The position numbers and the translations under genes were made by a program. Under the pieces are notes generated by a model. That model saw only the letters and a program-made list of their open reading frames with translations. It was not told the origin of the DNA and ran no database searches. Positions 5,339 to 12,142 of a DNA stretch of 12,142 nucleotides are shown piece by piece (position 1 is the first letter of the stretch; each line of letters opens with the position of its first letter). Origin of the DNA: Oscillospiraceae bacterium (GTDB lineage: Bacteria > Bacillota > Clostridia > Oscillospirales > Oscillospiraceae); the NCBI GenBank assembly GCA_017646545.1, contig JAGCMI010000006.1:1-12142 (forward strand), in the 5' to 3' direction.

Positions 5339-6802
5339 TTACAAAATCAGACAGACCAGACCCTGGGCCCCTTCGTTGACGATGCGCTGCAGGGTCACCC
5401 GGAACTTCTCCCGTACTTCCTCAGGAAGCTGCAGGAGTTTGGCGGTTAAGCCCTCCTGGATCAAATCGTATACGGACTTGCCGAAAATATTGCTCTGCCA
5501 CAGCTTTTCCGGTTCTTCGCCCCCCAGATAGCTGATGAGATCCGCCGATTGCTTTTCGCTTCCCACCATGGGACTGATCTCGGTGTCAATGTCCACCCGG
5601 ATCATGTGAATGGAGGGGGCGCCAGCCTTCATTTTGACACCGTAGGCGCCGCCCTTACGCAGAACTTCCGGTGGCTGCAGCGTCATTTCCTCCGGGGTGG
5701 GCATGACCACACCATAGCCCGTGGCGCGGACGGAGGAGAGGGCATCAGAAACCTTTTCGTATTCTTTTCGGGTGGCGGAGAGTTCTGTCAGCAGCTGCAG
5801 CAACTGGGCGTCATTTTCAATACTGACCCCGCAGCGGCTGCTGAGAATGTCATAAAACAGCTTTTCCGGCAGGGTGATGGCGCAATCGACACAGCCGGTG
5901 CCCAGATCCATGCTGCGCAGGGTGATGTTTTCCACCTGCTCCAGTTTTTCCAGTTTCTTTAAGGCGGGCTGAACCTGCTCCAGAGTCTGGATCTGACCGG
6001 CACATTCCAGCAGCGCATCAAAAAGTGTGGTTTTCACCGGATCGTCTTGCTCCAGTGCGTTCAGCCATCGTGGCAGATGCAGATTGATCTGCCCAAGAGG
6101 GAAGGCAAACAGCAGCTGCCGCAGCAGATGCAGGATCCCCTCGGTGTCCATGGTCTGACAGTCGGCAATGACGGGCGTGATGCCAAAATGCTGCTGCAGC
6201 GTTTCCTGCAGAGAGAGGGCGGCCTCCGACTTGGGGTAACGGCTGTTGATGATCACAAGGAAGGGTTTTCCCGTGGCTTTCATGTCCTCAATGGCCCGCA
6301 TTTCGGCATCTTCGTAGTCTGCCCGGGGGATATCGGTGATGCTGCCGTCGGTGGTGACCACCAGCCCGATGGAGCAGTGCTCCTGCATCACCTTTTTGGT
6401 GCCCAGTTCTGCCGCTTCCGTCATGGGGATCTCGTAGTCAAACCAGGGGGTGGTCACCATCCGGGGATTGCCGTCCTCTGTGGCACCCACTGCGCCATCG
6501 ACCATGTAGCCCACGGAATCGATCATTCGCACCCGCAGCCGGGTGGTGCCATCGGGGGAGATCTCCACCGCCTCTTCCGGGACGAATTTGGGTTCTGCGG
6601 TCATGATGGTTTTGCCGGAACCGCTTTGGGGCAGTTCGTCCCTGGCCCGTTCCCGACGGTAGGGGTCCGCGATGTTGGGGATCACCAATTCTTCCATGAT
6701 CCGTTTGATGAGGGTGGATTTGCCGGTGCGTACCGGGCCTGCCACGCCAATGTAGATATTGCCCCCGGTACGGGTGGCAATGTGCTCGTAAATGTTTTCC
6801 AT
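5339..6802 (-). CDS. spoIVA: Stage IV sporulation protein A (spore-coat ATPase)
   Basis: SpoIVA is the ATPase that polymerises on the outer forespore membrane, anchored by SpoVM, to form the basement layer of the spore coat. Its length, 487 residues, is close to the roughly 490 usual for the family. The Walker A motif GPVRTGKST is at 22-30. The family hallmarks follow: DPYRRERARDELPQSGSGKTIMTAEPKF (47-73, here split by eye), MIDSVGYMVDGAVGATE (from 93, with the Walker-B-like Asp at 95) and TTDGSITDIPR. The C terminus keeps the hydrophobic ending GLVCLIL expected for membrane/SpoVM contact. The start ATG at 6802 follows GGAGG at about five bases. It is monocistronic. In B. subtilis spoIVA is under sigma-E; a weak candidate is described separately. 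This gene is strong evidence that the organism makes endospores. Confidence 0.97.
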   Translation of the reverse strand: MENIYEHIATRTGGNIYIGVAGPVRTGKSTLIKRIMEELVIPNIADPYRRERARDELPQSGSGKTIMTAEPKFVPEEAVEISPDGTTRLRVRMIDSVGYMVDGAVGATEDGNPRMVTTPWFDYEIPMTEAAELGTKKVMQEHCSIGLVVTTDGSITDIPRADYEDAEMRAIEDMKATGKPFLVIINSRYPKSEAALSLQETLQQHFGITPVIADCQTMDTEGILHLLRQLLFAFPLGQINLHLPRWLNALEQDDPVKTTLFDALLECAGQIQTLEQVQPALKKLEKLEQVENITLRSMDLGTGCVDCAITLPEKLFYDILSSRCGVSIENDAQLLQLLTELSATRKEYEKVSDALSSVRATGYGVVMPTPEEMTLQPPEVLRKGGAYGVKMKAGAPSIHMIRVDIDTEISPMVGSEKQSADLISYLGGEEPEKLWQSNIFGKSVYDLIQEGLTAKLLQLPEEVREKFRVTLQRIVNEGAQGLVCLIL

Positions 6803-9333: not shown

Positions 9334-9406
9334 GGAGCAGGGTACGGGAATCGAACCCGCCTTCACGGCTTGGGAAGCCGTTGTATTACCGATATACGAA
9401 CCCTGC
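9333..9406 (-). tRNA. tRNA-Gly (anticodon CCC), 3' CCA encoded
   Basis: A 74-base gene on the minus strand folds completely. The acceptor GCAGGGT pairs with ACCCTGC, and TCCA is encoded. The D stem is GTAT/ATAC, and the anticodon stem ACGGC/GCCGT holds the loop TTCCCAA, giving anticodon CCC. The T stem is GCGGG/CCCGT with loop TTCGATT. The U discriminator base is typical of bacterial tRNA-Gly. A good promoter lies at 9417-9445 and a terminator at 9296-9333. Its 3' end is repeated, imperfectly, at 8435-8462 and 9195-9209, marking it as an integration target. Confidence 0.96.
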
Positions 9407-9543: not shown

Positions 9544-9600
9544 AAATTGCGAATTTTCGCGCAATTTGTGGTTGAATTTCCGGGTGCTGTGTGTTAGGAT
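9544..9600 (+). promoter_or_regulatory. cooC promoter with upstream inverted repeat
   Basis: TTGAAT (9572-9577), a 17-base spacer and TAGGAT (9595-9600) form a plausible sigma-A promoter. Immediately upstream is an inverted repeat, AAATTGCG (9544-9551) with CGCAATTT (9560-9567), ending four bases before the -35. Its position suits an activator or a repressor of the Wood-Ljungdahl cluster. A small hairpin (GGGCG/TGCCC, 9617-9631) lies in the leader before the RBS. Confidence 0.55.
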
Positions 9601-9667
9601 GTATCTGTATCAGTATGGGCGTATTATGCCCTTATGACACATACCCTAGCAAAGGAGGATTCCGATT

Positions 9668-10432
9668 ATGCCTCATACCATCGCAGTTGCCGGCAAGGGC
9701 GGCGTGGGTAAGACCACCACCTGCGGCATGCTGATCGACTACCTGTGCAAGAAGAACCGTGGCCCCGTCCTGGTTGTGGACGCAGATGCCAACTCCAACC
9801 TCAACGAGGTTTTGGGCGTGGAAGTGGAAACTTCCCTGGGCGCCATCCGTGAGGAAATGGCACAGGCAGAACTCAAAGGTACCATTCCCAAGGGAATGAC
9901 CAAGGCAGACTATGCCGAATTCAAGTTCAACTCCGCCCTCATCGAAGAGGACGATTTCGATATGCTGGTCATGGGCCGCACCCAGGGTAAGGGCTGCTAT
10001 TGCTATGTCAATGGCGTGCTGAAGACCCAGGTGGACAAGTATGCCAAGAACTACTCCTATATTGTCATGGACAATGAGGCCGGTTTGGAGCATGTGGCTC
10101 GCGGCACATTGCCCCATGTGGACACCATGCTGCTGATCTCCGACTGCTCCCGCCGTGGCGTTCAGGCTGTGGCAAGAGTGGCTGAGATGATCAATGAAAT
10201 GGAGCTCAAGCCCACCCAGATGGGTCTGATCATCAACCGGGCACCGGGTGGTGTGTTGGATGATGGCATCCGCACCGAGATTGAGAAGCACGGTCTGAAG
10301 CTTTTTGGCGTGCTGCCTCAGGATGAAGCGGTCTACCGCTGCGACTGCAACGGTGAGCCCAGCGCCAAGCTGCCGGAGAATGACCCGATGAAGGTTGCCC
10401 TGAAGGGCATCATGCAGTCCATCGGACTGTAA
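9668..10432 (+). CDS. cooC: CooC/AcsF-type nickel-insertion ATPase for CODH/acetyl-CoA synthase
   Basis: A 254-residue P-loop ATPase of the SIMIBI (MinD/NifH-like) class that helps insert nickel into carbon monoxide dehydrogenase or the ACS A-cluster, using ATP-driven dimerisation. The deviant Walker A motif GKGGVGKTT is at 9-17, the second lysine at 10. VVDADANSNL (36-45) is the Walker A' region. The family-defining CXC nickel-binding pair is in GKGCYCYVN (Cys 110 and 112), and MDNEAGLEHVARGT starts at 134. The length fits the family. The ATG at 9668 has AAAGGAGG upstream. It is the first gene of the right-hand cluster and is followed, after a 184-base structured gap, by acsD and acsC. Whether it serves the CODH or the ACS subunit (CooC versus AcsF) cannot be settled from sequence alone. 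Confidence 0.93.
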   Translation: MPHTIAVAGKGGVGKTTTCGMLIDYLCKKNRGPVLVVDADANSNLNEVLGVEVETSLGAIREEMAQAELKGTIPKGMTKADYAEFKFNSALIEEDDFDMLVMGRTQGKGCYCYVNGVLKTQVDKYAKNYSYIVMDNEAGLEHVARGTLPHVDTMLLISDCSRRGVQAVARVAEMINEMELKPTQMGLIINRAPGGVLDDGIRTEIEKHGLKLFGVLPQDEAVYRCDCNGEPSAKLPENDPMKVALKGIMQSIGL

Positions 10433-10444
10433 TCAATTCTGAAT

Positions 10445-10579
10445 ACAAGATCCGACATGGGATGCGCCAATTCCGGTGAAATCCCAAGGCCGCCTGATCA
10501 GCGGGACGCTCTGTGGTCATGAGGCAGAGTGGTACCTTTGGACAGCCGGCAAAACCGCGCCTCCAATGAAGGACTTTGT
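10445..10579 (+). promoter_or_regulatory. Structured leader RNA before acsD (unassigned riboswitch-like element)
   Basis: The cooC-acsD gap folds by eye into a closed multi-helix element. A closing helix pairs 10445-10453 with 10571-10579 (nine positions, one G-U and one A-C mismatch). Inside are a hairpin, TGGGAT/ATCCCA (10458-10463 with 10481-10486), continuing into CGCC/GGTG; CCGC/GCGG (10490-10493 with 10501-10504); CGCTCTG/CAGAGTG (10507-10513 with 10525-10531); and TTGGA/TCCAA (10538-10542 with 10562-10566). The motif GGTGAAATCC recalls the cobalamin-riboswitch core, but the CCCGCCACTG box is absent. ATCCC could instead pair with GGGAT in the acsD RBS (10604-10608), a possible on/off switch. 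No intrinsic terminator follows. Confidence 0.5.
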
Positions 10580-10616
10580 ATAAATTTTAAAAAAATACCA
10601 AGGGGGATAACAAACT

Positions 10617-11558
10617 ATGGCTTTCGTTCCCAAGACGGCACCCTACAGCGGCAAGATCAACGCTGTTACCCTGGGCACCGGTGACAACGCAATCGTCATC
10701 GGCGGTCAGAATGTGCTGCCGTTCTACACCTTCGATGCACCCATCGAAAACGCACCCAAGATCGGTATCGAGGTTTCCGATCTGGCAAACGAGTGGACTG
10801 TTGACAGTCTGAAGGAGTTCTACGCAGGTTGCACCACCATGGCTGACTACGCCAAGAAGGCTGAGTCCGTTGAGGGTGTTGACTTCATCTGCCTGAACTT
10901 CGTGGGCGCTGATCCCAACGGTGCAAACCGTTCCGTGGCTGACTGCGTCGCTGATGCCAAGGCTGTTGCCGACTGCGTCACCAAGCCCATCGTTGTCATG
11001 GGCTGCAAGAACCTGGAGAAGGACGGCGAGCTGCTGGCTGCCATCGCTGAGGCTCTGGCTGGCAAGAATGTCCTGATCATGTCCGCAAAGAACGAGAACT
11101 ACAAGACCGTCGGCGCTTCCGTCGCTCTGGCTAACGGCCAGAAGGTCGGTGCTGAAACCGCTGACGACATCAACCTGGCTAAGCAGCTGAACATCATGAT
11201 GAAGGGTCTGAATGTCAACCCCGCTTCCATCGTGATGGACATCGGTACTGCCGCTGTTGGTTACGGCTACGAGTACGCCGCTTCCACCTTCGACCGTATC
11301 CGTCTGGCTGCCCTGGCTCAGGGTGATGCTGACCTGCAGATGCCCATCCTGGCTGCCGTTTGCAACGACACCTGGGGCGTCAAGGAGTCTACTGCTTCCG
11401 TTGAAGACGAGCCCGCATGGGGCTGCCGCGAAGAGCGCGCCATTTCCATGGAAGTCGCTACCGCTGCTGCTGACCTGACCGGCGGCGCTGACGCTGTTGT
11501 TCTGCGTCATCCCGCTTCTGTGGCTACCATCAAGAAGTTCATCACTGAACTTGTCTAA
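10617..11558 (+). CDS. acsD: Corrinoid iron-sulfur protein small subunit (CODH/ACS delta)
   Basis: A 313-residue TIM-barrel subunit of the heterodimeric corrinoid iron-sulfur protein. With AcsC it holds the cobamide that takes the methyl group from methyltetrahydrofolate and passes it to acetyl-CoA synthase. The length matches the bacterial family. Recognisable stretches include YSGKINAVTLGTG and VIGGQNVLPFYTFD near the N terminus (to about 40), then NFVGADPNGANRS, PIVVMGCKNLEKDGELL, VLIMSAKNENYK, MDIGTAAVGYGYEY and CNDTWGVKES (by eye). ATG 10617 follows AGGGGG at about ten bases. acsC follows after 20 bases with a strong RBS, so the two are co-transcribed and probably made in equal amounts. 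Codon use is highly restricted (GCT, CTG, AAG, GTT), as expected for an abundant enzyme and stronger than in cooC. Expression may be set by the structured leader. Confidence 0.95.
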   Translation: MAFVPKTAPYSGKINAVTLGTGDNAIVIGGQNVLPFYTFDAPIENAPKIGIEVSDLANEWTVDSLKEFYAGCTTMADYAKKAESVEGVDFICLNFVGADPNGANRSVADCVADAKAVADCVTKPIVVMGCKNLEKDGELLAAIAEALAGKNVLIMSAKNENYKTVGASVALANGQKVGAETADDINLAKQLNIMMKGLNVNPASIVMDIGTAAVGYGYEYAASTFDRIRLAALAQGDADLQMPILAAVCNDTWGVKESTASVEDEPAWGCREERAISMEVATAAADLTGGADAVVLRHPASVATIKKFITELV

Positions 11559-11578: not shown

Positions 11579-12142
11579 ATGGCTCTGAAAGGTCTTGACA
11601 TTTTTAAGCTGTCTCCTAAGACAAACTGTAAGGAGTGCGGCAGCCCCACCTGTATGGCATTCTGCATGAAGGTGGCACAGGGCGCTGTGGAAATCGACAA
11701 GTGCCCCTACTTCTCCGACGACGCTAAGGCAATGCTGAACGAGCAGACTGCTCCTCCCATGAAGACCATCTCCGTGGGCGAGCACAAGCTGGGCGGCGAA
11801 ACTGTTCTGTTCCGTCACGAGAAGACTCTGGTTAGCAAGAACCTGTACGCAGCTTCCGTCTGCACCTGCATGGACGAAGCTACTGTCGACGCAAAGCTCG
11901 CTGCAGCCACCGTCGTTGACTACGAGCGTATCGGTGAGAGAATGTACGTGGAAATGATCCACGTTGCCAACACCCAGGCTGACCCCGCTGTTTATGCAGC
12001 GCTGGTTAAGAAGGCTGCTGCTCTGGGCCGCACACTGGTTCTGGAGTGCTGGGATGTTGAGTGCGCCAAGGCTGCTCTGGAAGTTTGCGGCAAGGATGTG
12101 ATCCTGGACGGCGCAACTCCCGAAAACTGGGAGGCTATGAAC
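11579..12142 (+). CDS. acsC: Corrinoid iron-sulfur protein large subunit, CODH/ACS gamma (3' end outside window)
   Basis: The first 188 residues are visible and the frame is open at the right edge; the full protein is usually about 440-450 residues. AcsC binds the corrinoid in its C-terminal domain and a low-potential 4Fe-4S cluster in its N-terminal domain, which reactivates the cobalt. The cluster motif is complete: Cys 17, 20, 25 and 42 (CKECGSPTC, then DKCP), with the same spacing as in the Moorella protein. Residues from about 90 (NLYAASVC) match the start of the central TIM barrel. ATG 11579 is preceded by GGAAGGAGG and lies 20 bases after the acsD stop. Codon bias is as strong as in acsD. 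Further acs genes (such as acsE, acsB, acsA) would be expected beyond the edge. Confidence 0.95.
   Translation, partial: MALKGLDIFKLSPKTNCKECGSPTCMAFCMKVAQGAVEIDKCPYFSDDAKAMLNEQTAPPMKTISVGEHKLGGETVLFRHEKTLVSKNLYAASVCTCMDEATVDAKLAAATVVDYERIGERMYVEMIHVANTQADPAVYAALVKKAAALGRTLVLECWDVECAKAALEVCGKDVILDGATPENWEAMN

Follow-up and report, generated by a model that had tools for sequence, protein, structure and literature searches.

The gap between cooC and acsD in the genome of an Oscillospiraceae bacterium raises the question of what this segment is, i.e., a regulatory RNA of a known or new type, or a folded piece of DNA that settled there. We analysed the window, the whole stretch of 12,142 nucleotides that contains this locus, and found the gap to be exactly as described in the initial annotation, 184 nt at 10433-10616 (Table 1). 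All the NCBIfam matches of the upstream gene are to MinD/ParA-type ATPases and every one lies under its cut-off; the name CooC is that of the initial annotation and follows gene order. The acsC product, which is truncated, scores 190.7 bits against NF003195, under the cut-off of 306. The genome of the window (G000, in which the window is contig C53) is incomplete (62% complete, 169 contigs). The acsD locus search kept the best 80 of 168 matches; among these, the nearest acsD loci with named records come from MAGs, on contigs that bear the label Oscillospiraceae or Clostridia, and the titles of many point to ruminant guts.

The gap contains a structured element which is carried by three species, rather than by a single strain, and which stands upstream of acsD, 36, 36 and 37 nt from its start. 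The boundaries first proposed for it (10445-10579) were approximately right, the best ends being one base wider on each side (10444-10580). Its outer 20 alignment columns, at P1, are identical at 19-20 of 20 positions between species. For the 3' strand of P2, the window's own fold and the consensus give slightly different registers. The P3 pair at columns 45/97 is A-U in the window and C-G in both relatives, and one P5 stem pair is U-G in the window and C-G in the relatives.

Table 1. Positions in the window of the element, its helices and the neighbouring operon features.
Feature	Position	Strand	Sequence or description	Pairing, support or match
Conserved structured element (whole)	10444..10580	+	137 nt	common to L003 1659-1796 and L009 2827-2963; covariation
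P1, 5' strand	10444..10454	+	TACAAG.TCC	pairs with 10570-10580
P1, 3' strand	10570..10580	+	AGGACTTTGTA	partner of P1 5' strand
P2, 5' strand	10456..10467	+	variable, most compensatory changes	helix 1, columns 13-26
P2, 3' strand	10554..10568	+		covariation
P2c, 5' strand	10473..10477	+	overlaps start of GGTGAAATCC	pairs with 10545-10549; alignment and consensus fold
P2c, 3' strand	10545..10549	+	GCCGG	alignment and consensus fold
P3, 5' strand	10482..10489	+	closes three-way junction	pairs with 10535-10542
P3, 3' strand	10535..10542	+		covariation
P4 hairpin	10490..10504	+	CCGC-CUGAUCA-GCGG	invariant in three species
P5 hairpin	10507..10531	+	CGCUCUGU-GGUCAUGAG-GCAGAGUG	loop invariant
cooC-like gene, upstream operon gene	9668..10432	+	MinD/ParA-type ATPase	ORF; NCBIfam matches
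acsD	10617..11558	+	acetyl-CoA decarbonylase/synthase delta subunit	NF040759, 446.6 bits vs cut-off 430
acsC	11579..12142	+	gamma subunit; runs past window end	NF003195
acsD ribosome-binding site (RBS)	10600..10607	+	AAGGGGGA	19 nt past element end

The closed multi-helix fold that had been proposed was recovered. The 137-nt element reaches a minimum free energy of -52.5 kcal/mol (z -2.95, equalled by 1/200 shuffles), the whole gap folds with a z of -2.11 (6/200 shuffles as good), and the homologous elements fold at -67.8 kcal/mol (z -4.21) and -60.7 kcal/mol (z -2.28). By itself, folding energy would be modest evidence for the element, and covariation is stronger evidence. Covariation among homologous gaps, to which the initial annotation had pointed as a check, is present: in the three-sequence alignment, 8 of the 46 consensus pairs have changed on both sides and still pair, which none of 500 shuffles attained, and 95.6% of the cells pair, which none of 500 shuffles equalled, these counts being taken with the relatedness among the three sequences that the shuffle test keeps. 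Controls with slid partners gave at most three double-sided compensations versus the eight observed, with the advantage over slid versions that the consensus structure derives from being built on the same three sequences. Six of the eight compensated pairs belong to helix 1 (P1/P2) and two to P3; P4 and P5 are nearly invariant and so stand outside the reach of the compensation test. A special structural role of this gap in general found no support: z values of -2 or below are found in 32 of 62 cooC-acsD gaps and in 21 of 46 other same-strand gaps (same loci, same strand, 60-300 nt, crude gene calls), so that control gaps are about as often strongly folded.

The core of the element (columns 42-100, i.e., 10483-10541) is made of P3, P4, P5 and their junction, a three-way junction with two hairpins. 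Over these 59 columns, L003 and L009 are identical (59/59) and the window shares 53/59 with either relative, whereas identity in the variable stems (P2 region) falls to 32/57, 24/57 and 31/58 (42-56%) over the three pairs (Fisher test of core versus variable stems, 5e-5 to 1e-10). For comparison, third codon positions agree at 62-67% in cooC and at 73-84% in acsD. Thus, the core has changed less than near-neutral sites have, and the stems vary while compensating. With respect to the window, core identity (90%) is close to that of the whole acsD gene (88-89%). Such a conserved core within variable stems is an aptamer-like pattern, seen here in no more than three sequences. A short protein-coding gene was also considered and rejected: one open frame runs through the core, without a conserved start (the GTG at 10476 of the window is GCA in both relatives) and without a Pfam match in a scan of three frames, those of the window only.

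The element has a narrow distribution. It is present in 3 of 79 readable cooC-acsD gaps, the window counted, which come from 82 loci (L001-L082) minus three, i.e., L002, which is L009's gap in the opposite orientation, and L032 and L070, which are cut. In the CooC+AcsD tree of the 79 loci, the three carriers appear as one clade; the adjoining locus, L015, has a different palindromic gap without the element. A covariance model of the element found it in two of the 136 genomes of the genus. In the family set, 2 of 400 genomes matched, the window's own and G296, which contains the L003 sequence and is filed in a neighbouring genus. In the order (394 genomes), relative (296) and phylum (398) sets, matches came from the query's genome or G296 only, in searches whose filters, at this scale, may miss weak matches (sets of 136, 400, 2, 394, 296 and 398 genomes, 1,626 in total and overlapping, with handles to G1268). 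By blastn within the genus, the carriers matched at E 4e-31 and 1e-21 and the remainder at 1e-3 or worse; at E <= 1, 119 of the 136 genomes match somewhere, and strongly in two only. The L003 locus lies on contig SVLN01000060.1 (G296:C27), which is assigned to the other genus and clusters with L009 in the tree. With a length of 3,650 bases, this contig may have been misbinned; alternatively, the genus may be narrowly drawn. Beyond cellular genomes, the window's gap had no match in plasmids at E 0.1, and the L003 gap gave one weak match each in phages (E 0.6) and plasmids (E 0.5). A pattern scan of viral sequences returned at least 120 chance matches for a 15-mer, none for the long core, and 3 and 2 for parts of it; six of the matched viral loci, scored with the covariance model, reached a best E of 0.29.

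The gap itself is a changeable place, its length ranging between 35 and 478 nt and its contents varying by lineage among the 79 loci. The cooC-acsD gaps of L004-L082 hold many unrelated palindromic repeats, some of which have copies elsewhere in the fetched loci. Hence the question of whether the element derives from a MITE-like palindromic repeat, since decayed or domesticated, which a single insertion in the common ancestor of the three species would have brought in and whose folded form may be DNA. It shares with the MITE/REP-like repeats of the same gap in other Oscillospiraceae its location, its hairpin fold and its inverted-repeat ends, TACAAG.TCC and GGACTTTGTA, the outer stem being then the terminal inverted repeat. 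The two strands, moreover, are hardly distinguishable: the minus strand folds at -51.2 kcal/mol versus -55.0 for the plus strand, and double-changed pairs number 9 on the minus strand versus 8 on the plus strand. G-U pairs outnumber A-C pairs by 13 to 2 on the plus strand and by 12 to 6 in the minus strand's own structure, a weak test of strand. The sole promoter-like match in the gap is also on the minus strand (10613-10584), with 1.2 such matches expected per shuffled 2.6-kb region. Since the minus strand comes close to the plus strand in folding, shows as many compensations and carries this promoter-like site, a plus-strand RNA as the working form is unproven, and a DNA hairpin or a repeat origin is compatible with the covariation. 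On the other hand, G000 (62% complete), G034 (81%) and G296 (77%), all incomplete genomes, yielded a single copy of the element each, the core is conserved far above its surroundings, and the P2 stem is compensated, all of which separate it from the repeats. We consider a MITE-like origin somewhat unlikely.

As for known RNA families, Rfam 15 at gathering thresholds gave no family in the element, with a tRNA elsewhere in the window as the only match, and at E <= 10, over the gap and the three carrier loci, the element matched nothing beyond noise. The covariance search of the gap thus disclosed no known class, and with the compensatory changes described above, the label of unassigned structured element given to it at the outset is upheld. 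A RAGATH-33 match (11.1 bits for a cut-off of 120.4, mostly inside cooC) was discarded as noise. The element is an orphan, clade-specific structured element within the operon.

One specific identity had been suggested, i.e., that GGTGAAATCC resembles the cobalamin-riboswitch core, and this resemblance did not survive comparison. AcsCD bind a corrinoid, so that a divergent cobalamin (B12) riboswitch upstream of a corrinoid-protein gene would make sense, and GGUGAAAUCC is part of the core of the RF00174 family. The likeness is a 10-nt string found in one of three sequences, at 10475-10484 of the window only; the same columns read GGCAGTTGCC in L003 and GGCAGAGACC in L009, which replace GGUGAAAUCC there. 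RF00174 has no match here, even at E <= 10, and the model does work: it detects a cobalamin riboswitch in the window's own genome (G000:C106, 57.3 bits) and matches in 6/6 genomes searched, lying in the three carriers on a contig other than that of acsD. As the motif is absent from the relatives and a working model is silent at this place, the cobalamin reading fails, and we regard it as highly improbable. A resemblance of AGTGGTACC to a T-box was also dropped: the string occurs in the window only, the relatives having GTGGTGCC instead, and no T-box match came from Rfam.

The initial annotation further proposed that ATCCC can pair with the acsD RBS, which would suggest translational control. 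Both partners exist, ATCCC and AAGGGGGA, but their pairing is not favoured and translational control is unsupported. Bringing the core's C-run into pairing with the RBS costs 8.8 kcal/mol in the window, 13.6 in L003 and 6.6 in L009. The mean unpaired probability of the RBS is 0.36-0.37 with or without the element, as estimated by in silico deletion in all three; it is predicted to pair mostly with its own downstream surroundings in either case. Sequestration of the RBS as the default fold was therefore rejected, on account of the pairing cost and of the unchanged accessibility. Moreover, the RBS appears independent of the element, since AAGGGGGA is present in 75 of 79 cooC-acsD gaps and AGGGGGA in 77 of 79. 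Simple scans of the gap revealed no terminator-like and no plus-strand promoter-like site; with the RBS results above, no riboswitch expression platform of the terminator or RBS-switch type was seen.

These results bear directly on the idea of a ligand-responsive riboswitch or aptamer of a new class, which would act on acsD through a fold change outside the minimum free energy model. The invariant junction and loops set within variable, compensated stems are what an aptamer would look like. The loops of P4 and P5 (10494-10500 and 10515-10523) each contain a 6-nt palindrome, UGAUCA and UCAUGA, invariant like the loops. These palindromes could allow a loop-loop contact or dimerisation, and a kissing contact of 5 pairs between L4 and L5 is predicted at -5.3 kcal/mol. 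The length of this run is at chance level, as shuffled loops reach at least 5 pairs in 14% of cases; both loops are palindromic in 0.17% of shuffled loop pairs, a measure picked after the loops had been seen. The loops being invariant, pairing between them is beyond the covariation test. Purine-type riboswitches have a three-way junction and two hairpins with pairing loops, a plan that the element shares in that its loops could pair; they differ in that P4 has 4 bp and P5 8 bp here, with no Rfam match. Considering also that the element lacks both a terminator-like site and a favoured RBS-sequestering alternative, and occupies a single location in three species, we find such a riboswitch quite unlikely. 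A bolder proposal, in our opinion improbable, is that of a novel kind of sensing RNA built on a three-way junction, whose loops would kiss or, being palindromic, form dimers; it would have arisen within the carbon-fixation operon of one small Oscillospiraceae clade and would control the corrinoid-protein genes acsDC.

The same loops, invariant atop variable supporting stems, would also suit a binding site on the mRNA for a regulatory protein, e.g., an RNA chaperone or an autoregulating subunit, and the single operon location would agree with a feedback on AcsD/AcsC. Nevertheless, 76 of 79 gaps before acsD do without the element, so that other loci do not require a general feedback site for AcsCD, and no candidate binder emerged; we judge this explanation unlikely.

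Our own preference, held tentatively as one possibility, goes to a lineage-specific structured intercistronic mRNA element that would set acsDC relative to cooC by processing or stability of the transcript. A post-transcriptional role on acsDC is favoured because the gap has no terminator-like and no plus-strand promoter-like site, the predicted accessibility of the RBS is unaffected and the data fit a single transcript. For the latter point, a TTGAAT-17-TAGGAT string precedes cooC in all three carriers and occurs in 3 of 78 upstream regions (shuffled rate, 0.0013); it scores under the threshold of the promoter scan and is consistent with, though no proof of, a single transcript across the gap. 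With transcription running through the element, the cooC-acsD-acsC transcript would fold into one closed module between cooC and acsD, in which P1 and P2 would zip the ends and P3 would open a three-way junction with the conserved hairpins P4 and P5. The transcript would be cut in the strip 3' of the cooC stop, and the element would shield the 5' end of the acsDC part, without engaging the RBS further downstream. More AcsD and AcsC than CooC would result from one operon. The invariant core would probably add a sequence-specific contact, by a protein or by a loop-loop fold.

Processing and stabilization by intergenic stem-loops are documented in Clostridium, as described in excerpts of PMC4423207 and PMC8219983. 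With the SRPS intercistronic stem-loops, as they appear in excerpts of PMC4423207, the element has in common a stable stem-loop located between genes of an operon encoding a multi-subunit complex; the folding energies of all three elements qualify as stable in that sense, the shared transcript being presumed. However, position and stability are what defines the SRPS stem-loops, whereas the element has an invariant three-way-junction core, which a generic protective hairpin would not need. An SRPS stem-loop goes with a mapped processing site and unequal transcript levels, whereas the element is known from its sequence and predicted fold, and it lies 5' rather than 3' of the gene for which a higher transcript level is presumed to be needed; in the same excerpts, protection is weaker at 5' ends than at 3' ends. 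The frequency of strong folding in other same-strand gaps also argues against processing and protection. Between the cooC stop and the element, the strip measures 11, 12 and 57 nt, and its A+T content is only 53% in L009; as length and make-up differ among the carriers, no shared cleavage signal is visible.

In acetogen transcriptomes, the RNA elements named in excerpts of PMC6239172, PMC5651825 and PMC12456013 are Rfam classes, e.g., cobalamin, FMN and Moco, and none is named at acsD; nor is any RNA element in the cooC-acsD gap mentioned in these excerpts or in those of PMC4423207. In Eubacterium limosum and Sporomusa, according to excerpts of PMC5651825 and PMC12456013, the genes of the acs cluster stand in another order. 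If the element does control acsDC, it would offer a point of post-transcriptional control over the Wood-Ljungdahl pathway of gut-type bacteria, and it would be a recently arisen, selected element at a place where relatives hold unrelated repeats or nothing.

Elsewhere in the window, a tRNA gene (9336-9406, minus strand, 57.6 bits) lies between unrelated upstream genes and cooC, and a full-length gene for stage IV sporulation protein A (5339-6802, minus strand, 601.5 bits) indicates that the organism belongs to a spore-forming lineage. In the cooC leader (9590-9667), TTGAAT-17-TAGGAT is followed by a short hairpin, TATGGGC..GCCC. Strings of the type TTGAATT ... GTATCnATATGGGC are found 5' of cooC in several element-free relatives, e.g., L006, L010 and L011, so that a conserved promoter followed by a cooC leader hairpin is likely.
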